Part shown: in pieces, positions 17,886 to 41,258 of the stretch | How positions within the stretch are numbered: the stretch's first letter is position 1 | How the letters are laid out: every line of letters starts with the position of its first letter | From: a virus | DNA: 43,780 bases | Virus record (IMG/VR): IMGVR_UViG_3300046505_000105 | Coordinates: 1-43,780 of that record | Strand: one strand, 5' to 3' | Notes under the pieces: generated by a model | Database searches by the model: none | What the model was told of the DNA's origin: nothing | Seen by the model: only the letters and a program-made list of their open reading frames with translations | Program-made: the position numbers and the translations under genes

Positions 17886-17898
17886 AATTTTCCTTTCG

Positions 17899-18066
17899 TC
17901 ATAGCCGCGTCCCGTCAGAGCGCGGCAAATCCAGATTTTCCAAAATCTCTTCGCGGGCGACCTTCACGGCGCCGTCCTGAATCACACACCCAAAAATCAA
18001 CTTGAGCAAATCCCACCAGGACAGGTGGCAATGGTCACAAGCAAAAGCTGAATTTTGAAATTTCAT
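17899..18066 (-). CDS. 55-residue CxxC protein before portal
   Basis: ATG 18064-18066 overlaps the stop of the nucleotidyltransferase gene (ATGA), and the frame ends with TGA at 17899, 13 bases before the portal ATG. The protein starts MKFQNSAFACDHCHLSWWDL and continues as one helix-forming segment (VAREEILENLDLP). CDHC may be half of a zinc site. The exact overlap and spacing support a real gene. Function unknown. Confidence 0.6.
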   Translation of the reverse strand: MKFQNSAFACDHCHLSWWDLLKLIFGCVIQDGAVKVAREEILENLDLPRSDGTRL

Positions 18067-18718: not shown

Positions 18719-20677
18719 TTACCTCGCTCCCCAGCCCCGGCCGCCCACGACCTCCGGGATTCCTGGATCCATGAAATACGCCGGCACATCAAAGTCATAC
18801 CGCGTCGCGTCACAGCCGTCTTTTGCCGGATGGTCCGGCGTCCCGTCCCACATCTGCCAGCAGCGCAGCGTGTTCTTGCAGCGGTCGCTTATGTACAAGT
18901 GCGGCTCGTTCTCCGGCGTCAATCCGTGCGGCAGAAACTTCCCCAACGCCACATTCGCCTCCGCCTGTTCCGCGTTGTACGCCAGCAAATCCTTTATCTT
19001 GTCAATGTCCAGCTTCACCGTCTGCCGTATCTGTGCCGGCAAAAACTGCATCGGCGCGTAATCCATCTCCGCCGGCTGCGCCCGGTCTTCCTGGCTGAAC
19101 AATTCAAACAACGTCACCGCCCCCTCCTGCGCCGCCGCCGCCGTCGCAAACGCCCGCGGGTCACCCTTGCGCCAGATCGGCGTCTGCCCGTGCTCGCGCT
19201 CGCGCTCCCGGAATTTCTTCTTGTAATCCCGTATCCCCAGCTTCGCAAACAGCCGTTGCCCTTCCCCCGCCTTTCCGTCTATCGTCACCCACTCGCCCTC
19301 CTCCATCCTCGGAAACTCGTCAATGATGTACTGCCGCTGCAGTCGGTCCACGCCCTTCCATTGCGCGAAGTAACTCCGCGCCGTCACCGGGTCCGCCGCC
19401 ATGTACGTCGTCAGCTCGCCCGCCTTCAGCATCTTCTCTATCCGCTCGTGCGGTATCACGTGCACCGTCGGGTCCAGGTTCGCCAGCTGGCAGCCCGTCG
19501 TTTTCTCCGTCCAACCAAACAGCCGCACCAGCGCCTCCTCCCGCCCCTTGCCCGTGCACGCCATGAACAAGTCCGGCACCGCCGGGTTGGCCACGTTGCG
19601 CGGCAGAAACGGGTTCCAATGCGTCCACGTAAAAATCACCCCATGCTCATGGTTCAGCGGCTGCATGATAAACGGCATGTGCCCCGGCGGGCACCCCTTC
19701 ACGTAGCTCTCCGTCAGCTTCAGTTCCGGCAGCACTATCGCCGGGTTCACTCCCCCCTCTTTGCCGTGGAACCAGTCCCACTGCATCGGCAGACTCTTGA
19801 GCACCCGCGCCCCCTCCAGCGCCCGCGCGCACACCAGCGTAAATCCCTCCAGGCTCGTGAACGTCAGCAGCACAATCCCCGCGCGTTTCCGCGCGCGATA
19901 AATCAGCGTGTCCACCAGCGCTATCGGCGCCGGCTCGTCGAACCACACAAAGTCATATTCCGGCCCCTCAAAACTGTTCGGGTCCCGCATGTACTGCGCC
20001 ACCGTCTTGAAACTGCACTCGCTCTGGTTGGGCAGCATGAAATTCAACTCCGTAAATCCGCCGATCGGCGTGTAGTTTATCTTGATCACCTTGTGCCGCG
20101 CCTTCTTCGCCTGCATGTTCCACGCCCGCGCGTGCGTCGGCAGGTATTTGTACACGCTCCGCTGCTGATAATGAATGCTCGCGTCCTCGTTCGTCGCCAC
20201 GCACAGCACCCGCCGGCCCCGTTCCGCCGTCAAAATCTCCGCCGTAAACTTCCCGCCCATCTCCGTCTTGCCGCTCCCGTTCGCCCCCAGGTTAAAAATC
20301 ACCTTCTTCTGCTTCATCAAATGCCGGGCCTCGGCCCAGCACGGCAAATCCGGCGCATGGTTCAGCGGATCCTCCGCCGCCTGCCGCACCATCTCCTCGT
20401 GCCGCTCCCAATAATTCAGCACGTTGCTGTAGCCATCACTCTGCGTCCGCGCAAAATCCAGTTGCCGCGCCGTCAGTGGCGGGCAAACCCGGTCCACCAG
20501 CGGATGCCGCGTCCACTGTAGCGGCGGCGCCCCGCCGCCGGGTTGCCCGCCGTTCGTAGCGGCGGCGCCCCCGCCGCCGGGTTGCCCGCCGTTCGTAGCG
20601 GCGGCGCCCCCGCCGCCGGGTTGCCCGCCGTTCGTAGCGGCGGCGCCCCCGCCGCCGGGTTGGAGTTCACGCTTCAT
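18719..20677 (-). CDS. terL: Terminase large subunit
   Basis: 652 residues from ATG 20677, which overlaps the stop of the preceding small gene (ATGA). The ATPase domain has Walker A FNLGANGSGKTEMGG near residue 130 and Walker B DFVWFDEP near 244. A motif III-like LLTFTS follows, and the C-terminal part should hold the RNase H-like nuclease. It drives DNA packaging into the procapsid through the portal. The N-terminus is unusual: three tandem GGNQPGGGGAAAT units plus a GGGAPPL unit, from a 39-bp repeat built on a type B palindrome. The catalytic core begins only near residue 60. The frame extends upstream to 20995 but that is a shadow. Confidence 0.85.
   Translation of the reverse strand: MKRELQPGGGGAAATNGGQPGGGGAAATNGGQPGGGGAAATNGGQPGGGAPPLQWTRHPLVDRVCPPLTARQLDFARTQSDGYSNVLNYWERHEEMVRQAAEDPLNHAPDLPCWAEARHLMKQKKVIFNLGANGSGKTEMGGKFTAEILTAERGRRVLCVATNEDASIHYQQRSVYKYLPTHARAWNMQAKKARHKVIKINYTPIGGFTELNFMLPNQSECSFKTVAQYMRDPNSFEGPEYDFVWFDEPAPIALVDTLIYRARKRAGIVLLTFTSLEGFTLVCARALEGARVLKSLPMQWDWFHGKEGGVNPAIVLPELKLTESYVKGCPPGHMPFIMQPLNHEHGVIFTWTHWNPFLPRNVANPAVPDLFMACTGKGREEALVRLFGWTEKTTGCQLANLDPTVHVIPHERIEKMLKAGELTTYMAADPVTARSYFAQWKGVDRLQRQYIIDEFPRMEEGEWVTIDGKAGEGQRLFAKLGIRDYKKKFREREREHGQTPIWRKGDPRAFATAAAAQEGAVTLFELFSQEDRAQPAEMDYAPMQFLPAQIRQTVKLDIDKIKDLLAYNAEQAEANVALGKFLPHGLTPENEPHLYISDRCKNTLRCWQMWDGTPDHPAKDGCDATRYDFDVPAYFMDPGIPEVVGGRGWGAR
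20518..20657. repeat. GC palindrome B, copies 19-22 with 39-bp tandem array
   Basis: Four palindromes. Three lie in a 39-bp direct tandem repeat (starts 20556, 20595, 20634) with essentially identical units; the fourth (20518) is one base shorter. They encode the TerL N-terminal extension. A 39-bp unit keeps the frame. Confidence 0.9.
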
Positions 20678-20880
20678 TCCCCGCCTTTCGGCGCCGGCAC
20701 CCCGCACGCGCGCCGTTCCAATTCCTGCGCCGCGCAGCCCAACCACCGCGCCAGGTCCAGCAGCTCCTTTGCTTTTTCTGGTGGCGGCAGTTCGCCGCCC
20801 AGTCCCAGCGCCGCCGTCAGCACCACCGCCCGGTCCGCCGCGGCCAGGGCGTCTGTCATCATTTGTTCCGCCATGCTCAT
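20674..20880 (-). CDS. Small protein directly before terminase
   Basis: 68 residues (MSMAEQMMTDALAAADRAVV ... KELLDLARWLGCAAQELERR), helical and acidic. It overlaps the helicase stop and the terminase start by 4 nt each. Position suggests a terminase partner, but at 68 residues without a clear HTH it is short for a small terminase subunit. Function open. Confidence 0.5.
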   Translation of the reverse strand: MSMAEQMMTDALAAADRAVVLTAALGLGGELPPPEKAKELLDLARWLGCAAQELERRACGVPAPKGGE

Positions 20881-22481
20881 TTCTGCTCTCTACTTTCCAA
20901 ATTTCTGCTTTGCCTTTCCCCCGGCACATCCTCGTCTCGTATCGCCGGCTCCGGCTCCTGCAAATAACACTTCGGTTTCTCCCCCGGATACTCATGGAAC
21001 TGCAGCGCCGGCTTGCAAAAATACAGCCAGCGGCTCGCGTTTTGCTGGCTGCCCGGCCAGCGCTGTTTGCTCAATATAAACTTCGCGTCCCATACCTTGA
21101 ACAGCCCGTCCATTTCCTTCCTCGTCTCGTCCGCCCCGTTCGGATAAATCGTCAGCTTCTCCTGCAACTCCGCCAGCTTCTCCGCCTTCTTTTCGTTGCG
21201 CAACATGCCGCACACGTTGTTCGCGTTGTCCGTCCATTGCTTGCTCCCTCGCACCCGGTCCTTCGCCCGGCTGTCACCGCCCTTGTTCTCGTGCACCACC
21301 AGAAAAGTGTGCGTCCCCGTCTTCACGCAGAAATCCGCAAACTGCGCCGCCGCCAGGCCCTGCGTCGCGTAGTCGTCATCCGCAATCCCTATCCGCATCA
21401 CGCTGTCCACCACAAACACCTCGCCCCCCAGATGCTCGCGCGCGTAACGGAACGTGTTCAGCAGCTCCCGCCAGTCCGTTATCCCCATGAAATTGTAGAT
21501 TAAAAACCGTTCGTTCAACCACGCCAGCGCGTGACGCGTTTTCCGCTCGTTCTCCGGGTTGCGTTCCAGGTGGCCCTCGCCCAACAGTTGCCGCGCCATG
21601 ATCCACAGCGTTATTTCCGGCGGCACCTCCATGCTCGCCAGCACCACCCGTTTCCGTGGCGGCGGCGCCCCGCCGCCGTTCGTAGCCGTAGCCGCGGCGC
21701 CCCCGCCGCCGGCCGTGTCAAATTGCTTCGCGCACTCAATGCAGATCTGGCCCAGCATCGAACTCTTCCCACTTCCGTTGTCTCCCGTGAACAGCGTGCA
21801 TTCCGCCGGCCGTATCCGCAGCGGAAAACCAAACGGCAGCGCATATCCGTAAGTGTCCTCCTTGCGTTCAAACCACGCGTTGAAATAAGCGTCCGCAAAA
21901 TCCGCCGGCGCGCACAGGTATTTGGGACTCGCCGTTCCCCGCTCCGTCAGCTTCTTCCACGTCAGAAAATTCTGGTCCACCTGCGCAAAGAACGCCTCGC
22001 TTGGCGCGCCCCCAAACTCCATCAGCAGACTGCTCTCCAGCACGTTCTTCTGTATCAGTTTCCGCGCCACAAACTTTTCCCAAACTATGTCCGCCCAATA
22101 CGGCCAGTTCGCCGCGCTCGGCACGGCCCCCATGCACTCGCCCAAATACGCGCCGCCGCCCACCTGTTCCAGTTGATTGCGCGTTGTCAGTTCTGCCGCC
22201 ACCGTGATCTCGTCCACCGGATTATTTTTGCTGTGCAGATACACGCACGCCGTCCAGATGGACTGCCGGCGCAGATCGTAAAACACCTCTTCATTCCCAA
22301 ACCTCTCCATCAATGCCGGCAGGACTGCCGGCGCGGCCAGCAACACGCATCCAATCAGCGCCGCCTCCGCCGCCACATTATGCGGCGGCAGCCGCATTTC
22401 TCCCTCTCCTGGGGGAGAGGGCGGACGTTTCCTCTTCAAACTCCCACCTGTCCCCGCCTGCTCTGAAACTGATTCAATCAT
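20877..22481 (-). CDS. dnaB: Replicative DNA helicase, DnaB-like
   Basis: 534 residues. The N-terminal domain begins LPPHNVAAEAALIGCVLLAA, the classic DnaB opening. ATG 22397 (MRLPPHN) is a possible start; residues 1-28 before it look disordered. The RecA-like domain has Walker A GDNGSGKSS near residue 233 and Walker B EVFVVDSVMRIG near 355. It unwinds DNA at the fork, probably loaded by the O-like initiator encoded upstream. Between Walker A and the next strand (residues about 257-275) two type B palindromes are translated (GGGGAAATAT, GGGAPPPRK). They lie in a surface loop of an essential enzyme. The C-terminal tail (RQSRNLESREQK) is heptamer-derived. Confidence 0.8.
   Translation of the reverse strand: MIESVSEQAGTGGSLKRKRPPSPPGEGEMRLPPHNVAAEAALIGCVLLAAPAVLPALMERFGNEEVFYDLRRQSIWTACVYLHSKNNPVDEITVAAELTTRNQLEQVGGGAYLGECMGAVPSAANWPYWADIVWEKFVARKLIQKNVLESSLLMEFGGAPSEAFFAQVDQNFLTWKKLTERGTASPKYLCAPADFADAYFNAWFERKEDTYGYALPFGFPLRIRPAECTLFTGDNGSGKSSMLGQICIECAKQFDTAGGGGAAATATNGGGAPPPRKRVVLASMEVPPEITLWIMARQLLGEGHLERNPENERKTRHALAWLNERFLIYNFMGITDWRELLNTFRYAREHLGGEVFVVDSVMRIGIADDDYATQGLAAAQFADFCVKTGTHTFLVVHENKGGDSRAKDRVRGSKQWTDNANNVCGMLRNEKKAEKLAELQEKLTIYPNGADETRKEMDGLFKVWDAKFILSKQRWPGSQQNASRWLYFCKPALQFHEYPGEKPKCYLQEPEPAIRDEDVPGERQSRNLESREQK
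21656..21711. repeat. GC palindrome B, copies 23-24
   Basis: Two copies, in frame inside the RecA-like core of the helicase. Confidence 0.85.
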
Positions 22482-22484
22482 ATT

Positions 22485-22799
22485 TCAAAATGGCATTTTG
22501 TCCGTCCGCTCAATTCTGGCCGCCGTCGCCACAAACCGATGGCCGTTATCATCTTTTTTACGCTGCCCCAAATTGCACGCGCCGCAAAGCAGTCGCAGTT
22601 CCTTGGCCTCAGCTTCGCGCCTGTATCGCGCCAGCCGTGCAGAAAAACTCAGTTCACTCACCACATAATCCCGCCCGTTCACATGGTCAAACTCCAGCTT
22701 GTCCGGGTCGTCTTCCGAGCATAGCTCGCACTTGCCGCCCAGCAGTTCCATCAACTCCCGCTTCAACCGTTGCGCGTAAATGGTCTGCCGGCAGGCCAT
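22485..22799 (-). CDS. HNH endonuclease, stand-alone
   Basis: 104 residues. CELCSEDDPDKLEFDHVNGR and LLCGACNLGQRKKDD give the ββα-metal layout: two CxxC pairs and the DH of the HNH core, with N in the last helix. It is a small DNA nicking/cleaving enzyme. Position between the initiator and helicase fits a homing-type or replication-associated phage HNH protein rather than the packaging HNH, which usually sits beside the terminase. It is distinct from the HNH domain fused to the integrase. Confidence 0.7.
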   Translation of the reverse strand: MACRQTIYAQRLKRELMELLGGKCELCSEDDPDKLEFDHVNGRDYVVSELSFSARLARYRREAEAKELRLLCGACNLGQRKKDDNGHRFVATAARIERTDKMPF

Positions 22800-24808: not shown

Positions 24809-25030
24809 TCAATCCGCACTCTGTTTGCCCGGATGCCGCAGCAGGAAGTCCTGTCCGTTTGCAAAAACCGGCGGCTGCCAATGCACCCGCACCGATCCGC
24901 ACTCCGCGCACACGGCCGGCAAATAATCACGCTCGATCCGCTGCACCACATGGCCGCAATCGCGGCAGAAGAAATAACCATCCCGCGCGCAGAGTGCGAA
25001 GCTTGGCCTTTGGTGAATCTCGTGTTTCAT
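24809..25030 (-). CDS. Zinc-ribbon protein, first gene of the early run
   Basis: 73 residues from ATG 25030 (MKHEIHQRPSFALCARDGYF). CRDCGHVVQ and CAECGSVRVHW form a four-Cys zinc ribbon, followed by a short basic tail. The frame continues to an ATG at 25087 that lies in the target duplication of the insertion sequence, so the IS now sits directly at the 5' edge of this gene and may have cut it from its promoter. It is probably a small nucleic-acid-binding protein. Confidence 0.55.
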   Translation of the reverse strand: MKHEIHQRPSFALCARDGYFFCRDCGHVVQRIERDYLPAVCAECGSVRVHWQPPVFANGQDFLLRHPGKQSAD

Positions 25031-25081
25031 TTTCCGTTCCGTAGTCGGCTGCTGGCTGCCGTCCACCCGATGCGGACGGCG

Positions 25082-25089
25082 AACCATTT
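25082..25089. repeat. IS target duplication, left (AACCATTT)
   Basis: Eight-base direct repeat, identical to 26788-26795. IS1595-family elements generate 8-bp duplications. Confidence 0.9.
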
Positions 25090-25123
25090 GGTGAGTGTCC
25101 CCTCACGACAGGTAACTGATTTT
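25090..25123. repeat. IS terminal inverted repeat, left
   Basis: Begins GGTGAGTGTCCCC and pairs with 26754-26787 over 34 positions with 7 mismatches. Confidence 0.85.
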
Positions 25124-25179
25124 ATTATGTATTGACATAACTCGTTGATTATCAAATGAATTTAGATGGTAATAATGTA

Positions 25180-25207
25180 TTGACAAAATGGGAAACTCTG
25201 TTAAATT
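25180..25207 (+). promoter_or_regulatory. Probable promoter of the IS operon
   Basis: TTGACA at 25180-25185, a 16-base spacer and TAAATT at 25202-25207. About 65 bases upstream of the first IS gene. A second TTGACA lies about 48 bases earlier. Confidence 0.5.
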
Positions 25208-25274
25208 TGAGTCGTAATATGAAATTACAAACCACCGGGGGTTTCCCGGAAGTGACGAAAACACAGACAAAATT

Positions 25275-25676
25275 ATGAAAATTACTCACTCGTTCCGAAA
25301 GAATCACAAAATCCAGTCCGCCATTTCTGACGTGGAAAAAATCGCCGGAATGCGCGGCTCGCACGGCGCACGCCGCCGAAGCGGAGAACGATTGCTGGTT
25401 ACAGCCGGTTCGCCAAACTTCGCCGAACTCGATTCGTATGAAGTTGGGAAAACCTTCTCCGCAAATTCTCACTGCTGGGAAGTAATCGAAAAAACACCGG
25501 CTGGAATCATAATCGAAAAAGACTTTAATCGTTCCGATATTACGTTGGCGCGGCGAACCGCTGCGTGCCGGAGATTGATGGTTGCCGGAAAACCGTTCGA
25601 CGGAACGGCCTCCCTCGAAAAACTTCAAAAGATGGCGAATGCCACCACAAAAATGGCGGTCGAAAAATCTCAATGA
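25275..25676 (+). CDS. IS passenger protein 1 (unknown)
   Basis: 133 residues. The N-terminus is basic (MKITHSFRKNHKIQSAISDV). The middle contains VGKTFSANSHCWEVIEKTPA and the C-terminus is helical. I recognise no family. It is first in the IS operon and its stop overlaps the next start (ATGA at 25673-25676), so it was carried in as part of the element. A partner of the transposase or an accessory cargo gene. Confidence 0.6.
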   Translation: MKITHSFRKNHKIQSAISDVEKIAGMRGSHGARRRSGERLLVTAGSPNFAELDSYEVGKTFSANSHCWEVIEKTPAGIIIEKDFNRSDITLARRTAACRRLMVAGKPFDGTASLEKLQKMANATTKMAVEKSQ

Positions 25677-25855
25677 ACGCTCCAAAGCAAAATCAAATTG
25701 GCCGTCCTCCCCGTGATGGGGAGGCGGCAACTGGACAGATTCAGCTTCGCGTGACGATGGCTCGCAAAAACGCTTACGTCCGGGCCGCGAAGCCGAAAAA
25801 ACTAACCGAATGGATTGTTGAAAACTTGGATAAAGCTTCAAGCTATGAGCTATAA
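25673..25855 (+). CDS. IS passenger protein 2, small DNA-binding-like
   Basis: 60 residues (MNAPKQNQIGRPPRDGEAAT, then IQLRVTMARKNAYVRAAKPK and LTEWIVENLDKAS). The IQLRVTMARKNAYVRAA strand-helix resembles a ribbon-helix-helix protein and could regulate the operon. It overlaps the upstream gene by 4 nt and the transposase start by 11 nt. Confidence 0.55.
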   Translation: MNAPKQNQIGRPPRDGEAATGQIQLRVTMARKNAYVRAAKPKKLTEWIVENLDKASSYEL

Positions 25856-26720
25856 CTTCAAAGACTTTGACGCGCAGTTCCCTGACGACGCGGCCTGTCT
25901 GGACTTCATTTTCCGCGCTCGCTACGCGAACCACGTTTGCGAGTGCGGGAAGTCCGGTTGTTTCCACCGAATCACCACGCGACGCGCTTATTCGTGCGCG
26001 TGGTGCGGGGCGCAGATTTCGCCGACAACCGGAACGATTTTTCACAAGTCGGAAACCAGTTTGAAAACTTGGTTCTTTGCGATTTTCCTTTTCGCAAAAT
26101 CCAAGAACAGAGTCGCGGCTAAAGAGTTGCAGCGGCAACTCGGAATCACCTACAAATGTGCGCACCGCATGGGGCACAAAATCCGCGAACTCATGGCCGC
26201 AGACGGCAACTTGTTCGCGGGCGTGGTCGAAGCCGACGAAACCTATATCGGGGGAAAACGTGCCGGACTTCGCGGGCGTGGGGCACTTGGAAAGACTCCG
26301 GTGATCGGCGTTGTCGAGCGGCGCGGCGGGGTGTGTGCGAAAGTCATGGACAGGGTAACGACCGCTGGCGCAATCAAACTCATTCGCGCAAACGTCCAGC
26401 CCGGAACAACGGTCAACACCGACGAATTTGGGATTTACAATTACGTGGGGAAACTTGGATTCACTCACAACGTCGTCAACCACGGGCGGAAAGAATACGT
26501 TCGCGGGCGAGTCCACACGAACACGATTGACGGATTCTGGTCGCAAGTGAAGCGCTCCCTTGACGGAACGCACCACAGCGTCAGCCCGAAATACTTGCAG
26601 AGCTACGTCAACGAGTTCGCTTGGCGTTACTCGCACCGTTTCGACGGGGAGCTTTTCGCCGCGCTGGTCGCAAAGACGGGTTTGATGCAACCCAAAGCAG
26701 CCGCAGAAACCGCGATTTAG
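25845..26720 (+). CDS. IS1595-family transposase (ISXO2-like)
   Basis: 291 residues from ATG 25845. An N-terminal zinc ribbon (CECGKSGCFHRIT, then YSCAWCGAQISPTTGTIFHK) is followed by the ISXO2-like catalytic domain. Candidate catalytic acidic residues are in VVEADETYIGGKR and VNTDEFGIY, with HTNTIDGFWSQVKRSL as the third block, which has Asn before the conserved GFWSxxKR. It cuts and moves the element by binding the terminal repeats. The frame is intact, with no stop or shift. Confidence 0.88.
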   Translation: MSYNFKDFDAQFPDDAACLDFIFRARYANHVCECGKSGCFHRITTRRAYSCAWCGAQISPTTGTIFHKSETSLKTWFFAIFLFAKSKNRVAAKELQRQLGITYKCAHRMGHKIRELMAADGNLFAGVVEADETYIGGKRAGLRGRGALGKTPVIGVVERRGGVCAKVMDRVTTAGAIKLIRANVQPGTTVNTDEFGIYNYVGKLGFTHNVVNHGRKEYVRGRVHTNTIDGFWSQVKRSLDGTHHSVSPKYLQSYVNEFAWRYSHRFDGELFAALVAKTGLMQPKAAAETAI

Positions 26721-26753
26721 TTTTACCCATGCGTTCATTTTATCATCATTCAA

Positions 26754-26787
26754 AAATTCCGTTACGTGTTGTCAAGGGACACTCGCC
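26754..26787. repeat. IS terminal inverted repeat, right
   Basis: Complement begins GGCGAGTGTCCCTTGACA. Partner of 25090-25123. Confidence 0.85.
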
Positions 26788-26795
26788 AACCATTT
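26788..26795. repeat. IS target duplication, right (AACCATTT)
   Basis: Exact copy of 25082-25089. Confidence 0.9.
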
Positions 26796-26807
26796 TGTCT
26801 GTGAGAA

Positions 26808-26829
26808 AGCTTGGGCTTGCGCCCAGGCT
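26808..26829. terminator. Hairpin with GCAA loop downstream of IS
   Basis: AGC-C-TGGGC-GCAA-GCCCA-A-GCT on the minus strand, followed by TTTCTC. On the plus strand it is followed by a T-rich stretch. It could end the regulator transcript (minus) or transcription leaving the IS (plus). It belongs to the phage, not to the IS. Confidence 0.45.
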
Positions 26830-26864
26830 AGTTTGATTTTCCAAAAAGAACGCAAGGCCGCCCT

Positions 26865-27068
26865 TTAGCAGCCAGCAACCGACTTCTCTAAAACTGGTAA
26901 AATCATCCGGCGCCGCTGCGCTAGGCAGTTCGGGCAAATCCCGTGCGACACCTCGCCGTCGAACTTCTGGATGCACGGCTTGGTCCCGATCTGCTTCTGG
27001 CAAACGCAACACGCGACCAGCATCGTGCCGGTCAATTCAGCATCGTGGTTTTCAAGCGGATCACTCAC
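26865..27068 (-). CDS. Small zinc-finger protein next to regulator
   Basis: 67 residues (MSDPLENHDAELTGTMLVAC). CCVCQKQIG and ICPNCLAQRR form a four-Cys zinc site with a C-terminal basic patch. It overlaps the ribbon-helix-helix gene by 4 nt, so the two are co-transcribed and may act together in the lysogeny switch. No closer family recognised. Confidence 0.55.
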   Translation of the reverse strand: MSDPLENHDAELTGTMLVACCVCQKQIGTKPCIQKFDGEVSHGICPNCLAQRRRMILPVLEKSVAGC

Positions 27069-27256
27069 GCTGCCACCTTCTCTTTCGCGGATTTGCTGAA
27101 CTCGCGCCGGTCCAAATACTCAACCAACGCTTCGCGGGTAACATCGGCTTCGCTCAACATTCGGGTTTTGGCTTCACTCGAAACGCGACGCTTCAGCGGC
27201 TTCGGCAGCCGGATTGCAAGTTTAGTTTCGCTAACCATGTGCCGATTGTCTGTCAT
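27065..27256 (-). CDS. Ribbon-helix-helix (CopG-like) regulator
   Basis: 63 residues from ATG 27256; ATG 27238 (MVSETKLAIRLPKPLKRRV) is the likelier start. KLAIRLPKPLKRRVSSEAKT is the beta strand plus first helix of an RHH protein, and SEADVTREALVEYLDR the second helix. It would bind DNA as a dimer, plausibly at the inverted repeat in the divergent region it shares with the integrase, and so control integrase and its own expression. It is the best candidate for the phage's lysogeny regulator; no CI-like or Cro-like HTH repressor was found. Confidence 0.7.
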   Translation of the reverse strand: MTDNRHMVSETKLAIRLPKPLKRRVSSEAKTRMLSEADVTREALVEYLDRREFSKSAKEKVAA

Positions 27257-27266
27257 ACGCCGCAGG

Positions 27267-27304
27267 TTGTCAACAATAAATCTTCAACTATTTTCAGTTG
27301 ACAA
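27267..27304. promoter_or_regulatory. Divergent operator: TTGTCAAC-N22-GTTGACAA
   Basis: Perfect 8-bp inverted repeat with 22 bases between arms, in the 95-base gap between the RHH gene (minus) and the integrase (plus). Each arm contains a TTGTCA/TTGACA-like -35, so repressor binding would block both promoters. Likely target of the RHH protein. Confidence 0.5.
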
Positions 27305-27351
27305 TAACAGGCGTTTGTAGGACATTTGCCGTGTGAAGACGAAATACCACT

Positions 27352-28800
27352 ATGCGCGAAATGCAAATCCCACGGAAATTGCGTTTTGAAATTTTGAAAC
27401 GCGACGGCTTCAGGTGTATTTACTGCGGGCGTCAGCCGCCCGACGTACGCTTGCACGTTGACCACAAGATCCCGGTGTACGATGGAGGGCCAACGCAACG
27501 TAATAACCTTGTGACCTCTTGCGAACAATGCAATGGGGGAAAGGCAAACATCCCTTTGAACGTAGCGGACAGCGGAAAGAAACAGATTTTTGATTTGCCG
27601 CACGTCACTCACCGCTCAAAGAAATTCTCTTGGAAGTGTGCCCGGTTTAGCATTTTCACGCGCAGCATTGCCACAGACGCTTCCTGGTATTTTCAATTCG
27701 AGTCCGGCGGCTCGCGCTACAAGCAAAGCCTGCACACGACAGATCCGATCGTGGCAGTCGAGCGCGCCAAGCTGCTACTTGAAGCCGATCTGAAACATCT
27801 CACTGATAAAATGCGCGCGGTGCTTAACGGCGGCGTAGTGACTGGTGGCTTCGGCGCCGGCGGTTGTTCGCGCATCGAGGACGTGCTGGCGTGGCTGGAG
27901 AAGCGGCCGCGGCCCTGCGCGAACGAAGCCAGCGCATTGAAACTCGTCCTGCGCAAACTCTTTTCAACCCCCGATAAATTGACTACGGCCGTCTTTTCCG
28001 CCGATCTCCCGCGCCGCTGGAAGCTCATGTACGAGGAGCTGTGCGCCGGCAAAACGCAAAACGACGCGAACCGCATCATGCGCTCCGCCAACAGCATCCT
28101 CCACCAGGCCAAAACGGTGTTCAGTGTCGAGCGCCTGTCTGACATGAAGGCGGCCGGGTTCGTCTTCCCGGAAATGAAAGTATTCTTCGACGAAGTGAAA
28201 GCGCGCCGCTTTAAGAAACTCCCCAAGAAAACTTTCGTGCCCGTCCCGCACACCGTTGTTGCCCGTACGCTGGCCGAATGGAAAAAACTGCCGCGCAACG
28301 AATTTCTGGGCGTCGGGCTGATGCTCTCGTGCGGCCTGCGCAAGAGCCAGGTCGCTCAGGTGCGTTGGGATTGGATTGGCGAGGAGGAACACCGGCCGGT
28401 CCTCACCGGCGCCGCTGAGGTAAAAAACCGCAAAGGCCGCGTGCACGTGTTCCCCATCACTCCCTTCTGGCGCGTCCTGCTGCGCCGCGCGAAGCAGGAG
28501 AAGTGGATTGGCGACAGCGCAGAGGCGAAGAAAGATTACGTCCTCACCGGCAACTCAACCGAGCGTTGCGACGAGGTGTTCCGCCGGATCTCCACCTGGA
28601 TGCGCGGCCTTGGCTGGCAGATGCAAAAAACCAACCACGCCTTCCGCGATTACGCCGGCAGTCTGGTGGCCATGAAATACGGATTGGAAGCCGCCAAGGA
28701 ATTTCTCGATCACAGCAGCGTGACCACCACGGAGAGCCACTACACATCATTCATCAAGAGTCACGCGACCCGCGGCCGCTCCTACATCAACTGGGCTTAA
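27352..28800 (+). CDS. Tyrosine recombinase (integrase) with N-terminal HNH nuclease domain
   Basis: 482 residues in one uninterrupted frame. Residues 10-64 are an HNH domain: CIYCGRQ (C22, C25), VDHKIPVYDGG (D37, H38), N52, CEQCN (C57, C60). From about residue 92 a phage-integrase-like N-terminal domain follows (SWYFQFESGGSRYKQSLHTT). The catalytic domain has R330 (LSCGLRKS), Lys in NRKGRVHVF, H429 and R432 (NHAFRDY), H454 (LDHSS) and Y464 (SHYTSF): a full active site. It integrates and excises the phage genome. Whether the HNH part nicks DNA in this process is open. It ends 4 nt into the ATP-grasp gene from the other side. Most phage genes are on the other strand. Confidence 0.85.
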   Translation: MREMQIPRKLRFEILKRDGFRCIYCGRQPPDVRLHVDHKIPVYDGGPTQRNNLVTSCEQCNGGKANIPLNVADSGKKQIFDLPHVTHRSKKFSWKCARFSIFTRSIATDASWYFQFESGGSRYKQSLHTTDPIVAVERAKLLLEADLKHLTDKMRAVLNGGVVTGGFGAGGCSRIEDVLAWLEKRPRPCANEASALKLVLRKLFSTPDKLTTAVFSADLPRRWKLMYEELCAGKTQNDANRIMRSANSILHQAKTVFSVERLSDMKAAGFVFPEMKVFFDEVKARRFKKLPKKTFVPVPHTVVARTLAEWKKLPRNEFLGVGLMLSCGLRKSQVAQVRWDWIGEEEHRPVLTGAAEVKNRKGRVHVFPITPFWRVLLRRAKQEKWIGDSAEAKKDYVLTGNSTERCDEVFRRISTWMRGLGWQMQKTNHAFRDYAGSLVAMKYGLEAAKEFLDHSSVTTTESHYTSFIKSHATRGRSYINWA

Positions 28801-30107
28801 CCAACCGCCTTCTTCAACTGCTCCGCCGTCGGCAGCGGGTCCGCCGTAAACGTCGCACCCCACTGATTCGACCGCTTGATTATGTCCAGCATCTTCGTGA
28901 GGCTGTCTGTGGCAATCTCAAGCTGGTTGCCGTCCAGCGCCTTTGCATGTTCGCCCAGCGCCTTCGCCGCCGCCAGCAGCGTGTCGCCGATGCCCACCAC
29001 ACCCGCCACATTAGTCGGCGACCCCTGCGGGACGCTGAACCGCTTGCCATTCAGCGCGTAGGGATTACGCAACTTGATCCAGCGGTCCGCCGCCGGCGGA
29101 TAACTCATCGGCTGCCAGTGCTTGCCGCTGTCCTCGTGGTACGCCATCGCCACGATGCCATACCGCGCCGCCGGCTTGGGCGACACCAGTTTGCCCTCCG
29201 CGCCCCACCACAGCGTCTCGGCCCACCCCGTAAAAAGTTCCTGCAACAGTTCGTTCGACGGCGAACCCAGCCTCATGCACGGGTCCATCGGCGTGTACTC
29301 GCGCCGTTGATTGAAAAGCCCCTCCATGCAAAAAAATGTCCGCGCCTGATCGGCGGCCAGCACCTTCGCCAGCTTCGCGTTGAAATCGCGCAGACACTGC
29401 GGCAGTTGCGCGTACGGCTTCACAATCCCCACCGTGCCCAGCCCTTTCACCTCCATGCCCTGCATGATGAACTCCGGCCACTGCCCGTCCACGCTGAACA
29501 AATCCTCGCCCAGCTCGAGGACGTCCTTTTGCTCCTCCTCCACCAGAAACTCCGTGTCCTGCTTGAAACTCCCCAGGTCATACGCCAGTTGATCCAGCCG
29601 CGGCGTGCCGATGTGTTCCCCCTTCCATTTCCAGGTTTCCATGTCGCCGCGGTTCATGCCGTTGGCCAGCTTCACAAATGCCGTCTTGCGTGGCAGCAAT
29701 TCCGCCGTCAGCGCGTCAATACCCTTCGCGACCTTCGCCTCCGACAGCCGCATCCCTTTCCGCTTGCACCAGTCCCTGAATCCCAGCCGGTCCAGCTCCA
29801 CCTGCTCGGCCAGTTTCGCCCCCCAAACCCGCTTGCCTTGCTTCGCCAGCCGCAACTGCCAGTCGCTGTGAAACAAATCCATAAAAACAAACAAATCAAT
29901 TTCATCCTCTAGCGCCTGCGGGTCATTGCACCGTTCCAACTCAGGGAACCCCTCGCCCAGGCGCGTCTGTTTCTGCGACGGAAACCCCGATTGCCAGGGC
30001 GTATAATATAGGTTGCGCCCGAAGGCTGGTGCGATGCGCCGCGCGAACCCATGGAACAATCCACTGTCTATCCACAACACCGTCTTCGATTTCAGGTCCA
30101 TACTCAT
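28797..30107 (-). CDS. ATP-grasp-fold ligase-like enzyme
   Basis: 436 residues. The N-terminal pre-ATP-grasp part has VLWIDSGLFHGFARRIAPAF and FMDLFHSDWQLRLAKQGKRV. The latter has the form seen before ATP-grasp domains, ending in WGAKLAEQVELDRLGFRDW. The core shows FVKLANGMNRGDMETWKW (nucleotide-binding strand and RGD) and an acidic metal-site-like stretch. Such enzymes join a carboxylate to an amine or thiol using ATP; PurD-like glycine ligases are the nearest general pattern. The substrate cannot be told. It is the last gene of the long run, after the giant protein, and overlaps it by 4 nt. It may modify a virion protein, a nucleotide or a cell-wall precursor. Confidence 0.55.
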   Translation of the reverse strand: MSMDLKSKTVLWIDSGLFHGFARRIAPAFGRNLYYTPWQSGFPSQKQTRLGEGFPELERCNDPQALEDEIDLFVFMDLFHSDWQLRLAKQGKRVWGAKLAEQVELDRLGFRDWCKRKGMRLSEAKVAKGIDALTAELLPRKTAFVKLANGMNRGDMETWKWKGEHIGTPRLDQLAYDLGSFKQDTEFLVEEEQKDVLELGEDLFSVDGQWPEFIMQGMEVKGLGTVGIVKPYAQLPQCLRDFNAKLAKVLAADQARTFFCMEGLFNQRREYTPMDPCMRLGSPSNELLQELFTGWAETLWWGAEGKLVSPKPAARYGIVAMAYHEDSGKHWQPMSYPPAADRWIKLRNPYALNGKRFSVPQGSPTNVAGVVGIGDTLLAAAKALGEHAKALDGNQLEIATDSLTKMLDIIKRSNQWGATFTADPLPTAEQLKKAVG

Positions 30108-33100
30108 TGCTTATACAAAGCCCCCGGCCGACTCTGGACTGTGGGCTTCGGACTTTGTTTCAGATACGGCACCACCATCTTCACCAGCCGCCCCGTCTCG
30201 GCCGCGTCCAGCTTGCCGCCCTTATATGCGCGTTTAATCTTTTCCAGCAGCACCGGCGACTCGCCGCCGCTCTCGTTCAGCGTCGTGCAACTGGCCAGTT
30301 GCACTTTCTCCTGCTCACTGGCCAGGTCCCACACCCGCATGGCCTGCTCCACGCTCATCTTGCTCACCTGATATTCCAGCGGTGTCCAGGTCACCCGTTT
30401 CGCCAGCACCGTTTGCGCCGCCCTGGTGGTCGCACCGGCCCCGCGCAATCGTTCCACCAGCACGCCCTCGTCGTTGATCTTGCCCGTGCGCAGATCCTTC
30501 ACCAGTTGCGCCGTCAGTTGCGAGCGTTGCGCCTGGTCGGGCGTGCGCGCCCCTTGCGGCATCATATCCTGCATGATGTCCGCCGCCAGGCTCTCCGCCG
30601 GCGTCATCGCGCTTTGCCTCGACGCCGGCATGAATCCAAAGAACGCGGCGGTACGCTGTTCCAGCGGCGTGCCGCTCTCCGCCATCTTCGCCATGCCTGT
30701 CAGGAAAAACGGCTTGCCCTGCGCGCCCATAAACTTCGCGTCCGCCCAAATCTTTTGCGCCATGTTCTCATCCGCCGTGCGGATCTGCGTGTTGTAAAAA
30801 TCCCGGTTGTTCCACAAGTCAACCAGGCTGGAGAGAAACGGATTCAAGCTGTGTCCGAACGCCACGAGCGGATGCCGGCCGTAGGCGATCACGTCCTTCA
30901 TATAAGTGGGCAGGCTTATCCGCACGTCGTTGCCCATGGCATCCTTCCGGCCCGTGCGCGGCATGTAATAATCGCGCCACTCTTGCGGTGTCTGCCCCGT
31001 CATCAGAAAATTCAGCATCGCGCCCGCCAGCCCTACGCCAATCGGCAGCGCCAGCATGTACGCCGTGCGGTGGCTGAGGCCAGTCCAACGGCCATGCCCC
31101 GCGTCCCAGCCCAGCTTGCCCAGGTCCAGCGCGCCGCCGCCCAGCTCCTGGTACTTGCCCAGCTGCCAGCCAAATGCCCGGAACGATAGCAGCGCCGCGT
31201 CCTTGGCCGTCTTGTTGATGAAGCGATTATCATACGCCATCTGCCCCATGCGATTGTCTATGCTATCGCTCACCCGACGCGCCACCGCCCGCAGCGCTTC
31301 CGGGCTTTGGGGATTCTCCGTTATCATGTCGTGCCCCAGCATTTCCATCGCCGCGCCCGCCTTCTGCCACGGCACAAAGTATTCCATTACCGGCCGCATC
31401 GCCTGTTCGATCACCGCCCAGGGCAGGTTCGCCAGCGCCTTGCCCGTCTCGGTGAACGCGTAAGCCTTTTGCAACCCCGGCTCCTTCAGTTGCGTCCACG
31501 CCTGGGACAATGCCCGCAGCGATCGCCGCGTGAACTGCGTGCGCCAGAACGGGTCCTGGCTGAACCTGAACCCGCCCGCTTCCAGATTCTTCACCGCCTC
31601 GGCGTACAGTCCGCCCACGCTGCCCGGCTGCAACGATTCTTTCCGCAGCAGATAGCCTCGGTACAGATTGGAGAGCGGTGCCAGCGGCGCGCTGGCCACC
31701 GCCCTGCCCGCCAGTTTGATATAACCTTTGGAAGCATCGCGGGCCGCCAGCGCCATCTTGTTCAGCGGCGCTTCGCCCGTCACAAACCCCAGGTGAAACC
31801 CGCCCACTAATTGGATCCCGTTCAGCAGATTGCTCGCCTCGCGGAACCCGCGGAACATGGCAAACCGTTGCAGGCCCGGCCGCAAATAATTGTCCACCAC
31901 ATACACCGCGCCCTCCGGCATAATCCAATCACCCAGCCGCACAAAGCCCGGCAGCTTCTTCTGCGCCTCAGCCGAGCCAAGGCGGAGGCTCGGCTTGACG
32001 TCGTTGATCCACGCGAGCTCCTTGTGCGCGGAGAGAAAACTTTCCAGCGCTCCTTTCACGGCCGGCGCCACCTGCGCCATTCGCTCCGGCGCGTGCATGT
32101 AGGCCTGCAGCGCCACCGCCATCTTCTCCGGCATCGAGCGCACCTCGCGCTTGAAAGATTCGCTGGCGGTCTGGCCCTCAAACCGCAGGTCCGCCAGCGC
32201 CCGCAACTGGTTCTCCATGCCCTTCGTCGCGTTAAGCCGCTCGCGGAAGTCCGCGTAGCGATTATCCAGCGCGTGGCCCAGCTCGTGAAAGAGAACGAAC
32301 TCCGGCCCGGCAAACTTGGTCACGATCCGCTCCGTGCCCGGCGTGCCCGGCCGGTCCTTTTCAAAGCCCCACCGTTTGCCGCCGATCGCCACCAGGCGCT
32401 TGTGCGGTATGCCCATGCCCTCCATGCCCTCCAACATCCGCTCGCGCATATCGGCGTCAAAGGCTTCTTTCAGCGTCACGACTGGCTGGCCCCATGAACG
32501 GAATGCCGGATCTTGAGAGGTCGCCCAGCCTTCCGGCATTGGGCGGCTGTAAAACTTGTGTTTGTAAAAACCAGCGCCCTTCATTATTTCGACAAACTTC
32601 ACGCCTAGGATGAACCGCTCCACCTCGCGCCGTTTCAGCATCCACAAATCCACCGGATTGTCGTGCAAAGGTTTCAGTCCCGCCGCCAGCGCCTCGGTAA
32701 AAAGTTTGTACGTGCGCTGCTTGAGAAACGCCTTGCTCCCCTCCAGCGGCTGTTTGGCCAGGAACTGCGCGATTACGTGGCGCGCCTTGTCCGGCCGGTC
32801 CCAGATATGGGGAAAGTAATTCTCGTACCACGTCTTGAGCGCGCCCTTGCCCAGCGCATGCACGCGGTCCAGCATCACCTCGTTCTGGCTCCTGAACTCC
32901 GCCGCCAGCGTCGCCTCCTGCGGGCCCAATGTCCGCGCCGTTCCGCCTTCATACGCGTCAACAAAAGCCAGGTTGCGCGGCAATGGCAGACCCGGATTAT
33001 ACTTCCAGCCCTTAGGCAGTGGTGTCCGGTCAAAGTCATTGCGGAATGGACGCAGCGCCTTGTCTGCCCGCGCCAGTTCGTTGGCCATCTGCGCGCCCAA

Positions 33101-36100
33101 CTGGCGGAGGACATCCGCCGCGAACCTTGCCGGCCCGCTCAACGACTGCGGCGCCGCCGCCGCACGAAACGTCTGCAGATCCTTGATCAACCCTTCTGCG
33201 GCCGCCGGCCCTTGCGCCACCAGCTCCTTCGCTGGCATTTCTGCTTTCTGCTTTCTGCTTTCTGCTTTGTCCCCCCCCGCCATCCCATGCTCCGCTTCTC
33301 CGGTAGGGCGGCGCTGCTGCGCCGCCGGCGTCCATAAATCCCCCGGCGCCGCAAACATATCCTTCTGTCCCAAATCCCCCGCCGTTCCCTTCAGCTTGGC
33401 CGCCGCCTGCTGCTCCATCCGCTGCCGTTTGGCCAGCGCCTCGGCCTCAGCCTCCGCTTGTGCCCGCCTTTCGCGCTGCTGGTCCATGTTCTCCGGCGGC
33501 TCCAGCGCAAAAGGCTCGTCCGCGTCCATCCCGTGAATCGCCTCGGCCTCCGCCCCCCGTTCAAACTCGCTCACGTCCAGGTCCTCGCCGCTCTGGATGT
33601 TCCGCAGCGTCCGCAGCTTGCGGTCCGCCACCGCCATCCGCCGCCGGTCGCTGTAACTCTCCCGGTTCGTCCACACGTGAAAGTCCGCCGGGCTGGCCGT
33701 GTTGCGCCGGCTCACGCGCCCCAGCATCTGGTCGAACACATCCGCCGCAAAGTTCAGCGTGGCCGCATGCGCCACCCGCGGCTGGTTCCCAATCTGGTCA
33801 TCCATGTCCAGTCCCGCTCCGCCGCTCCGCGGTGTGGCCAGCAGCACCTTCGCCTCGCCGCGTTGGAACAGCGCCGCCGCGCGCCCCTTCTCCTCCGGAC
33901 TGTCCTCAAAAACTTTTGCGTAGCGTATCCCTCGCCGGTCCAGCTCGCGCGCCAGCTCGCCCAGGATCCCGGGCACCATCTTGCCCGCTCCCTTGATCAT
34001 CGTCGGCCGGTACCCCTCGCCGTACACAATCACGTGCTTGCCCCGCGCCAGGTCCTCCATCACGGCTTCCAAAATCCAGGGCAGCTTTTGGATCTCCGCC
34101 CAGCGCGATAGTTCCAGCGTCTTCTGCCCGCTCAGGTTGCGCCGGTACATCGGGCTTTTCGCCGCGTGTATCTGCGCGTCCCAATACTTCTCGATTGCTG
34201 CCTGCTCCTTGAGCTGGTCCGCGCTGAACCCCGGCGCGTCGCGCATGGCCGCGCGCCCGAAGAACGGAAATTCCCGGCGCAAAAACTGGCCCGCCTTCAC
34301 CGCCACATTCCGCAGCCGCTTGATGTTGTCCGTCACGGCGTGCCAGCTCATGTCCTTGTCCAGCACGGCATACTCGCGCGTCTGGCCCTCCGTCAACCGT
34401 TCCTCGAAATGGTACCCCAAATCCTTGGCCACCTGCTCGCGCGAGCGGCCGGTCAGTTCCGCCAGGAAATAAGCCGCGTGAGTGGGGCTGTCCATCGGGG
34501 TGGCGGTCGCAAACACCTTGTGCCGCGCCCGGATCAGCTCGCTGTAAACCTGCCGGTTGCTCCCCTTGCGTTTCAGATTATGCGCCTCGTCAAAAATAGC
34601 CACTCCATATTCGCCCTTGGGCACCTTCCCGCGCGAGAGGTCGTCGTAGGTGATAAATTCCGTGCCCTGGCTGGGGATCCCAAATTGAACCTGATCGGCG
34701 CGGAAACGGTTCTCAATGATCGGCCGGCTTTGGGTTACGATGAGGCTGGGCAGTTTCGTCTTGAGGTGCATCTGATGGGCCACGGCCAGTTCCGTGCCCG
34801 TCTTGCCCACGCCAGTGCCGTCCCCCAGGAGATAGGCGGCCTTGCCCGCTTCAAACGCCGTCAGGGCGGAGTTGAGGGCGTAGCGTTGCGTCTCGTCAAT
34901 GCCGGCGCCGCGCGGCCCCGTATATTCGCCACTGCGGACAATCGGTCTTGGCGTTGGTAAATCTCCTTCGTCAACCACTCTAAGTCCCGGTCGTCGTGGA
35001 CGGCCTGCTCCTCCCACTGTTCCAGAAAGCTCCGGTCCGCCTCCAGCGGCTGCCGGCCCGCCAATGAATCGTCCGCTGCTGTCATAACTTTCAATCTCCT
35101 CGCGCGGTGTCATCCGCGCTTTGAGGTGTGCGGCCTCGGTAAACTCGCGCACCTGGTTGTATGCTGCATGATAATACGGCTGGTATTCCCCGTCAAGCGC
35201 AGCATTCATCGCTTGAGCGTAACTGGCAAAATCCGTTTTGCCGCCCTTGATGATGTTCCCCGCCACCGCCGTCAGGTGCCGCAGTATGGTCGCGTCAAAC
35301 CCTTGTGGCACAGGCCTCTGGCCTGTGTTCATCCCCGGCAGTTCCCCGCCTGCCTCCATCCCATGCTCCGCTTGTACGCCTGCCACCGCCAGCACTTGGT
35401 TTTGGTACGCCGGCCCCAGCCGCGCGCCTTCTTCGGTGGGGATCACATGCTTGCGGCCGTTCTTGCCCTGGTGGATCTCCGCCAGCACCATGTCCCCACT
35501 CATTACGGCCGTCGGCGTCACCCTCAAGCTCTGGTTAAACGCCTCAAAATCCGCCGCCTCTTGCGCCGCGGCTGTCGCCTCGCGGTCAATCGCTTTCGCG
35601 GCGCTGGCTTCATCCCAAGCCCGGTCAATCAATTCCCCTTCACTCTCCGGCACACCGCCTTCCGGCGCGCGGCCCTCCTCGCCGGCCTGCATGATGCCCT
35701 GCAAAATCAGATCCGCCTTGGGCTGGCCCGCGCCAAACGTTCGCTGGTAAGCCTTGCGCAAGCGGCGGTACTCGCCCGCGTTGCCATCGTCGCGCGCCGC
35801 GGCTATCTGCTCCAGCACATAAGCCAGCGTGTCATGCGCCCCGCCGGCGTCAAACTGCGCCACCACCTGCGCGGCCGTGGCCCCCTTGCGCATAACGGCC
35901 AGCGACTGATCCAGGTCCGGCCCCGTCAACCCGCCCGCTTCCCGCACCGCATCCGTGAGCGTATAAACATCCTCCAGGGGCTGGGCCGGCACTGGCTCCA
36001 CCGTGTCCGCCTTGGGCGGTTTCCAGGTTTCCGCTTTCTGCTTTCCAATTTCTGCTTTTGCTTCCGGTGGCTGGCTCGCTTTGACCACCGCATCCCTGGC

Positions 36101-39366: not shown

Positions 39367-40209
39367 TTACATGCTCGTCAGGCTCGCCCCCATCTTACCC
39401 ATCGTGCTAAACTGCGCCCCCTCGCTGGCGGCCGTGTTATTGGCGCTGGCAATGCTCGCCGCGCTGTTGGCATTGAAAACTGTATTGAACATATCGTACA
39501 GGTCGCTGGAGCTTACAAGATCCTGGCTGCTGGCTGCTCCCGCCCCCGTCGCCGTGAGCGTCTGCGCCTGTTGCGGCGCGCTGCTGCTGCCACCCAATAT
39601 CTCCAGCGCCGGGTTGGTGTACATGCTGTTGTTCAGGTTGGCCACACTGCCCGCCTCGCTCTCGCGCTGGCCCAGCAAAGTCTGCCCGCCGCCGTACAGT
39701 TGCATGGCCTCGTCCAGTTGTGCCGGCCCGCTCGTGCCCAGCCCGCGGTTCGCCCAGTTGGTCCGCACCCCGCTCGTGATCCGCGAGGTCGAGTCCGGAT
39801 CCAGTTGCGTGCCCAGTGCGAGCTGGCCGGTCGCCGTCTTCGTCAAACTGTCCATCAGCGTGCTCTGGCCCGGATTCAGCGCCCGTATGCCGCTGACCGC
39901 TCCCGGCCCCATGTTCGTCACATCCCCCACATTAGCCGTGCGCAGCGCCGTGTTCGCCGCCGTCTGCGCGCCCGTAATGGCCGGCACCACGTCCTGGCTG
40001 TACATGCTCAGATATCCCGGCCGGCCGTTCACGCCCAGCAATTCGTTGAACATCCCCTGCAAATCCAGCGCCGTAAACCCCGGCTGATTTTGCTGTTCAA
40101 TGCCCAGCAGTTGTGGAAAACCCTTCCCATACGCATCCAACATTTGCTGGTACGCCGGCGTTTGCTGGCTATATGGCACGCTTACATCTTCCCCGCCTAA
40201 ATCACACAT
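39367..40209 (-). CDS. Internal virion / DNA-ejection protein (tentative)
   Basis: 280 residues from ATG 40209, chosen because AGGAG stands 8 bases before it; the frame runs to 40242 but overlaps the upstream gene. It is Gln/Asn/Ala/Ser-rich and helical (YSQQTPAYQQMLDAYGKGFP ... QTAANTALRTANVGDVTN), with the low-complexity look of podovirus internal proteins (DNA transfer proteins). It sits between a fibre-like gene and the giant polyvalent cluster. Function by context only. Confidence 0.5.
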   Translation of the reverse strand: MCDLGGEDVSVPYSQQTPAYQQMLDAYGKGFPQLLGIEQQNQPGFTALDLQGMFNELLGVNGRPGYLSMYSQDVVPAITGAQTAANTALRTANVGDVTNMGPGAVSGIRALNPGQSTLMDSLTKTATGQLALGTQLDPDSTSRITSGVRTNWANRGLGTSGPAQLDEAMQLYGGGQTLLGQRESEAGSVANLNNSMYTNPALEILGGSSSAPQQAQTLTATGAGAASSQDLVSSSDLYDMFNTVFNANSAASIASANNTAASEGAQFSTMGKMGASLTSM

Positions 40210-40212
40210 AAA

Positions 40213-40224
40213 TTTGTCTCCTGC
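40213..40224 (-). promoter_or_regulatory. Ribosome binding site deciding the start at 40209
   Basis: GGCAGGAG lies 8 bases before the ATG, one of the few clear Shine-Dalgarno sites in the genome. Most genes have A-rich contexts instead. Confidence 0.6.
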
Positions 40225-40235
40225 CGTTCCTTGTG

Positions 40236-41258
40236 TCACCACGCGTACATCTTCACCTGCCAGTGGCCGTTGTTAATAATGCAGTCGGCCCCGGTCGTCT
40301 TGGAGCGCAGCACAATCGTCCCGCTGGTGTCCCGCGTAAACCACACATTGACTGCGTTGGCGCCATAACTGCCGGTGCCAATCGTCTCTTCATCCCCCGC
40401 CGCATACCCATACTCGCCCGTGGTGCATACCAGCACCGCCCGGCACTGCGGCACGTAGGGGAACCCATGCGCCTGATTCAAAATCGTTCCACTGCCCGAC
40501 ACCGCCACCTGCGTGCTCGTAAACAGAGGTTGGCCCGCCAAAGTCAGTCCCGGCCCGCTCAGGTTCCCATTCGTCACCGTGGCCACCGCAAACTGCGGTC
40601 CCAGCAGCAGGTTCTGCCCCGGCACATTCGTCAGTCCACCGCTCGGCTGGCCCCACGCCAGTGCATTGGCGCTCAACCCCAGCTTGCTGGGTTGTATGCC
40701 CGCATTAGCCTTTATGTTCACATCACTTACGCTGTTCGCCCGCAGCGTCAGCCAGTTGATGTATATGCTCCCCGTCGTGTCATTCGTGTTGGCCACCGTG
40801 TTCGTGCTCATGGCAAAATAATTCTGGTCTATGTTCAGCCAGAACGTCCCGTTGCTCGTCATGATGCCGCCCACTCCCGCCGCCAGCACCTGCAACTGCC
40901 GCGGGTTGTTCGCGTTCCACCCCATCGTTATCCCGTCCGGCAGCCCGTCGCAGAGCTGGTTGCCGCACACGCTGCCCGGCGTCAGCGATATGCTGTTGGA
41001 GCCGCCCCCCAGGCCCACCGTGCCGTGAATCGTCACCGTCGGCTGGCCCAGCAGGTTCAGCAGATCGTACGTCGGCGCCACCGCCCCCTCCACCGGAAAC
41101 TGGTAGCCCGGCGTCACCACCGCCGTTAAATCGGCGCGCAGCGCCAAAGTGGAAAGCAGAAAGCAGAAAGCGCAAGCAAAAGTAGAAAGTAGAAATTTGG
41201 AAAGTCGAAATTGGAGTCCCCATTTCTGCTGTCCCCTGCTTTTGTTTTGCGTTTTCAT
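40236..41258 (-). CDS. Exported tail-fibre-like protein
   Basis: 340 residues. The leader MKTQNKSRGQQKWGLQFRLS and the hydrophobic FLLSTFACAFCFLLSTLALR are encoded by repeats nearly identical to the leader of gene 4939-6357, but without the 54-nt hairpin segment. Beta-rich fibre sequence follows. The C-terminal domain (YGYAAGDEETIGTG ... INNGHWQVKMYAW) resembles distal parts of tail fibres. AAAGCAGAAATTATG is its start context. Export would be unusual for a tail fibre; alternatively the leader is removed or unused. Confidence 0.6.
   Translation of the reverse strand: MKTQNKSRGQQKWGLQFRLSKFLLSTFACAFCFLLSTLALRADLTAVVTPGYQFPVEGAVAPTYDLLNLLGQPTVTIHGTVGLGGGSNSISLTPGSVCGNQLCDGLPDGITMGWNANNPRQLQVLAAGVGGIMTSNGTFWLNIDQNYFAMSTNTVANTNDTTGSIYINWLTLRANSVSDVNIKANAGIQPSKLGLSANALAWGQPSGGLTNVPGQNLLLGPQFAVATVTNGNLSGPGLTLAGQPLFTSTQVAVSGSGTILNQAHGFPYVPQCRAVLVCTTGEYGYAAGDEETIGTGSYGANAVNVWFTRDTSGTIVLRSKTTGADCIINNGHWQVKMYAW
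41150..41205 (-). repeat. Heptamer A tract encoding a signal segment, second
   Basis: Counterpart of 6196-6246. Near-identical DNA encodes the hydrophobic segment of a different protein. Confidence 0.85.

Follow-up and report, generated by a model that had tools for sequence, protein, structure and literature searches.

The gene at positions 27352..28800 (+ strand) of the virus record IMGVR_UViG_3300046505_000105, whose whole 43,780-base stretch was analysed and is referred to here as the window, raises the question of whether an HNH nuclease and a phage integrase are joined in a single protein and, if so, where the nuclease came from and what it may do there. Phage integrases are generally regarded as requiring no more than binding and strand-exchange domains, accessory factors setting the direction.

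The gene starts with an ATG and encodes 482 aa plus a stop, with no internal stop codon. Its N-terminal HNH nuclease module (residues 5-66; 27364..27549, +) is matched by Pfam PF01844 over residues 22-64 (E 4.8e-12, 46.3 bits for a cut-off of 21.4), by PF14279, also above the Pfam cut-off, and by phrog_14314 over residues 4-68 (E 3.9e-23). The tyrosine recombinase catalytic domain (residues 321-466; 28312..28749, +) is matched by PF00589, Phage_integrase, with a modest score (E 1.3e-9, 38.5 bits for a cut-off of 27.1), and the PHROGs integrase family phrog_1 covers residues 109-469 (E 1.2e-14). By these scores, both domain matches lie far beyond chance. The N-terminal part displays an HNH motif with its metal-binding and catalytic residues and two CxxC pairs (C22, C25, D37, H38, N52, C57 and C60, to which N61 adds the third HNH position), as expected of a predicted HNH endonuclease, while the C-terminal part carries the R..HxxR..H..Y residues of a predicted tyrosine recombinase (R330, H429, R432, H454 and Y464), which are conserved in the one clear relative described below. 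Both integrases also share a VKN at K358, which we take, from the motif and from its conservation, to be the candidate catalytic lysine. The first-pass annotation had proposed an HNH domain and a complete tyrosine integrase in one frame: every residue that it named for either active site is in place, and the domain search that it suggested found both families in one polypeptide with Pfam as well as with PHROGs.

When the whole fusion protein was compared by tblastn with 50,697 phage records, 68 were matched and, among the 40 of these that were listed, the similarity concerned the HNH half only. The best matches lie in the N-terminal part of HNH proteins that are 240-269 aa long, and five of the phages were fetched (Vibrio phage 219E41.2, Pseudomonas phage JBD44, Escherichia phage Louie, Oenococcus phage Krappator27 and Komagataeibacter phage phiKX1); in three of them (JBD44, Louie and Krappator27) the gene immediately following the HNH gene is annotated as a replication initiator or helicase loader. 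The fusion and these five proteins have in common, in all six sequences, R17, D18, C22, Y24, C25, G26, H38, G45, G46, N52, T55, C57, C60, N61 and K64. A profile built from the five stand-alone proteins aligns to residues 5-89 of the fusion (E 1e-26), and its positions 91-258, the C-terminal ca. 170 residues, found no match in the six frames of the window. Since the profile match ends at residue 89 and the remainder is absent, the gene holds the nuclease module and a short linker of such a protein without the other half. The fusion is thus like the stand-alone phrog_14314-type proteins over residues ca. 5-89, including all HNH positions, but has an integrase where these have a C-terminal half of their own of ca. 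170 residues. A sequencing error joining two frames, which the annotation had named as grounds for rejecting the fusion, is unlikely: both halves are intact and in the same frame, and because no remnant of the HNH C-terminal part occurs in any frame of the window a frameshift need not be invoked.

Phages commonly encode HNH proteins of this type (the 68 records above), which would also suit a homing unit, in which the HNH cleaves, for instance, the HNH-free integrase loci of competitors and spreads by repair, the integrase gene being merely carried along. The available part of PMC10448857 describes HNH nucleases as shuffling among DNA-binding domains and homing nucleases as sitting near essential genes. 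However, the donor's C-terminal half is absent and neither an intron nor an intein nor an interrupted gene was observed, so that homing is regarded as decidedly improbable.

The integrase half is divergent. Single-protein searches returned no relative in viral contigs or genome contigs, none in viral contigs for its C-terminal 57 residues, and, in the phage records, 72 records at E values up to 10 with a best E of 0.5. Neither the integrase half in the 398 genomes of one bacterial phylum (that of genome G017; E <= 1e-7) nor a two-row integrase profile in the 296 genomes of another (that of G014; E <= 1e-15) gave any match, both searches being uninformative in the absence of a positive control. 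One clear relative was reached after the integrase half had been aligned with two distant phage integrases, three sequences in all. This is L071, a 430-aa integrase encoded on the 38,063-base virus record IMGVR_UViG_3300042987_002960 (G710), which is 35% identical to the fusion over 420 columns, from residue 68 onward; two further alignments (A4 and A5) that wrongly put its N-terminus over the HNH part were left out. In Pfam this relative matches PF00589 alone, with no HNH, and it begins with a short stretch rich in Pro and Ala. Nowhere in its record does an HNH-like stretch score better than E 0.9, and the integrase itself had no match in phages or plasmids. The junction zone of the fusion (residues 67-96; 27550..27639, +) is the interval in which the stand-alone HNH profile, extending to residue 89, and the HNH-free integrase, aligning from residue 68, overlap.

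Seven ORFs of the window match the G710 record at E <= 1e-6 and occur there in the order of the reversed window: 41287-43779, 39370-40272, the integrase, 25529-25852, the helicase, the terminase and 15633-17963. An eighth match was an antisense frame inside a shared gene and was left out. The integrase occupies the corresponding place in G710, in the opposite orientation. Judged from these sequence matches, the two are distantly related phages, and the same locus, carrying an integrase with HNH in one and without it in the other, is a within-group comparison. Because a related phage has an HNH-free integrase, the fusion appears to be genuine and rare, and to have arisen by a later addition. 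Close phage relatives of the window were also obtained from a helicase alignment and terminase searches (L011 to L014), but their contigs stop short of the integrase locus, and none of the four records matched the fusion protein. In two of them, L011 and L012, ca. 400 bases of the window between the terminase and helicase genes (about 20517-20920) are unaligned.

The first-pass annotation had also offered the HNH domain as a possible replacement for the arm-binding domain with which integrases usually begin. Two AlphaFold2 models were of low confidence (mean pLDDT 46.9 each), and in alignment A3, the input to the first, the ends of some HNH rows are wrongly set over the integrase. In both models residues 97-158 (27640..27825, +) form strands at 97-103, 112-118 and 121-126 and a helix at 132-158, followed by a helical region; with a local pLDDT of about 60-74 this is the best-scored part of each model, or nearly so. 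A weak DUF6538 match, below the cut-off, falls on residues 121-143 (E 0.034). Residues 159-320 (27826..28311, +), with a boundary that we infer, probably correspond to the core-binding region, being mostly helical in the models and covered by phrog_1. With Foldseek, the best match of the integrase model was full-length lambda integrase (1z1b; E 3.2e-4, TM 0.26, for a low-confidence model), followed by other tyrosine recombinases, and the HNH-free relative L071 has the same segment as residues 97-158. An HNH standing in place of the arm-binding domain is consequently not supported, as far as these low-confidence models go. The other part of the earlier interpretation, a fusion with two intact sets of active-site residues, stands. 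These data support, although they do not prove because the models are of low confidence, the view that the HNH was placed ahead of an arm-binding-type domain which the integrase has retained, and the integrase half is probably of the arm-binding type as modelled. The fold of such a domain would resemble that of AP2. With the arm-binding tyrosine recombinases of phages and ICEs (PMC8138268; lambda Int, Tn916 Int), the fusion has in common the catalytic residues, a probable core region and, as predicted, the strand-strand-strand-helix unit; it differs by ca. 85-90 extra N-terminal residues with the HNH.

The two halves also differ in composition. The HNH half has a GC content of 0.50 and a GC3 of 0.59. 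In the integrase half these values are 0.596 and 0.76, and its composition is like that of the core genes (GC3 of 0.76 for the helicase, 0.83 for the terminase and 0.80 for the convergent neighbour). Two stretches of the window are low in GC, one at about 24910-25900 and one at about 26570-27640; in composition, the HNH half is thus like the accessory region to its left. The contrast is moderate, and because ca. 6% of the 279-base stretches in the window have a GC as low as the HNH half, composition supports but does not prove its later arrival. Together with the existence of the stand-alone nuclease family, it makes a nuclease captured upstream of the gene the best-fitting of the three options that had been put forward for the HNH domain, the others being a replacement of arm-binding and a possible nicking near the att site.

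A composition shift near the junction would equally be produced by an assembly chimera joining a low-GC, HNH-bearing contig to a phage integrase gene, the more so as the junction occurs on one contig and an IS1595-type element, a kind of repeat prone to misassembly, ends about 560 bases upstream. The break would however need to have fallen in frame and at a domain boundary, and collinearity with G710 assigns the genes on either side of the locus to one phage type; a chimera is thus very improbable.

The IS1595-type element (25090-26787) is itself intact: it encodes a transposase at 25842-26717 (DDE_Tnp_IS1595, E 2e-40), its terminal inverted repeats are imperfect, and its 8-base target duplication (AACCATTT) is perfect. 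Relatives of the transposase, 44-47% identical, were found in Bacteroidetes and Alphaproteobacteria assemblies. Extra ORFs lie ahead of the transposase inside the element, among them a small one at 25529-25852 whose homologue in G710 (33%, E 6e-9) lies next to the integrase. In addition, the end of L011 is matched by 72 bases inside the element (25117-25188), a match that does not include the terminal repeat of the element, and the element may on this sequence evidence carry phage-derived passenger DNA. A 17-base inverted repeat (25043-25059 and 26868-26884, 94% complementary) flanks it from outside.

A consensus scan of 26700-29000 detected two promoter-like sites where 0.7 were expected, and by that scan only, one is located upstream of the fusion gene (TTGTCA-16-TATTTT; 27267..27294, +) and the other, divergent, upstream of a ribbon-helix-helix gene (TTGACA-17-GACAAT; 27245..27273, -). 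The latter gene is a small ORF (27065..27256, -) and a possible regulator, with a weak ribbon-helix-helix match below the cut-off (PF01402, E 0.036). On the other side, a convergent gene of 436 aa (28797..30107, -) overlaps the integrase stop by 4 bases; it matched no family, and no relative was found by single-protein search. The same scan revealed no promoter-like site between the HNH and integrase halves.

This last result bears on whether two products are made, namely the full-length fusion and an integrase-only form initiated at one of two in-frame TTG codons, at residues 69 and 82, with the HNH serving mainly as a translated leader. The purine-rich GGGGGAAAGG lies 11 bases before TTG 69, and the HNH-free relative aligns from just before that codon. 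TTG is nevertheless a weak start and, because the purine-rich stretch also encodes conserved HNH residues, it does not count as independent evidence; with no internal promoter-like site to add to it, this arrangement is quite unlikely.

No tRNA-like attachment site candidate was found near the gene in the window, a repeat scan for att gave nothing clear, and a T-arm pattern occurred 8 times against 11.5 expected. A tRNA-Thr proposed by ARAGORN at 20523-20614, inside the stretch unaligned in L011 and L012, was dropped as it had no Rfam support. About 130 bases before the HNH-free integrase of G710, a tRNA-like stretch (L071:2651-2728) reaches 20.2 bits with Rfam tRNA (gathering threshold 29) and is a possible attachment site remnant, as far as its sequence indicates.

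Two other ORFs of the window may be mentioned. The first, of 104 aa (22485-22799, -), is located between the helicase and replication initiator genes and has a weak endonuclease VII/HNH match below the cut-off (E 5e-4), so that it is possibly, on that sequence match, a second nuclease in the same phage. The second, of 2438 aa (30104-37420, -), displays a superfamily-2 helicase-like stretch in mid-protein (ResIII, E 2.7e-6), and a single-protein scan of viral contigs returned no relative.

No second HNH-integrase fusion was found in the collections searched, among which the likely host group is not represented. Our impression from sequence habits is that the host may belong to the Verrucomicrobiota. 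None of the 68 phage records nor of 17 matching plasmid records covered 80% of the fusion protein, and the open frame was only 163-317 aa long at each of the nine viral loci where an HNH relative occurs. HNH matches occurred in 207 of the 296 genomes of the G014 phylum, the longest frame among the matches listed being 325 aa, and phrog_14314 matches in 107 of the 398 genomes of the G017 phylum. Among the matches listed for the latter, three frames exceeded 440 aa, all with the HNH at the C-terminal side, and nothing recognisable as an integrase was seen when these three were read by eye; nine other frames were 311-376 aa long. In the open-access literature searched, no title or abstract reported an HNH-tyrosine-integrase fusion, and the main text of a tyrosine recombinase census (PMC8138268), in the part available, has no occurrence of "hnh", "nuclease" or "fused". 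Related architectures occur elsewhere. In HNH-AP2 (IPA-HNH) homing nucleases, as presented in the available part of PMC10448857, the HNH is likewise N-terminal and a small strand-rich unit that binds DNA comes after it, but in the fusion the corresponding unit would be a domain belonging to the integrase itself, with a full recombinase behind it. Polinton-like viruses, in the portion of PMC12220804 consulted, have an HNH fused N-terminally to another mobile-element enzyme, which there is a helicase; HNH and tyrosine recombinase occur together in two instances, with no fusion described in that portion.

Being a single example, the gene may represent a recent accidental fusion in which the integrase alone matters; the HNH would then fold without playing a part, or contribute no more than non-specific binding to DNA, and would be lost with time. 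The relative L071 shows an integrase with no need of an HNH, the differing composition suggests a recent arrival, and the fusion lacks the half with which the donor nuclease was presumably targeted. Against this, the frame is open across the junction and all HNH residues conserved in the relatives have been kept, though a recent event would not yet show decay. Such an accident is unlikely overall but retains a sizeable share of the probability.

The best reading of the sequence is that the gene results from a later in-frame domain capture that would have given an intact integrase a tethered HNH nuclease, at a junction known from one metagenomic contig. The HNH would have been added to an already working integrase, possibly after an inversion or local rearrangement had set the 5' end of the integrase gene beside an HNH gene, and the HNH module would have lost its presumed targeting half in the process. 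There is precedent for HNH domains that move among DNA-binding and replication domains (PMC10448857, PMC12220804). As the integrase replaces the lost half, the DNA-binding domains of the integrase would now direct the HNH, which might nick or cut near integrase-bound sites, whether phage arm or core sites or the host target, while the integrase half would perform ordinary integration and excision. That the gene yields one protein with an HNH active near the sites of the integrase is held tentatively, at slightly below an even chance. A bolder proposal, in which the integrase brings an HNH nickase to the synaptic complex via its arm- or core-binding domains and so alters the outcome of recombination, is rather unlikely. 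If true, the nick might relieve topology or drive direction, or a break in an unoccupied target or in the att site of a rival might lead to repair that favours the prophage.

A nuclease on an intact integrase would represent either a new control of integration or a homing nuclease parasitising an integrase gene, and the fusion offers a natural template for nickase-recombinase fusions. Even if the HNH is idle, the locus would still provide a clear snapshot of domain capture in the accessory region of a phage.
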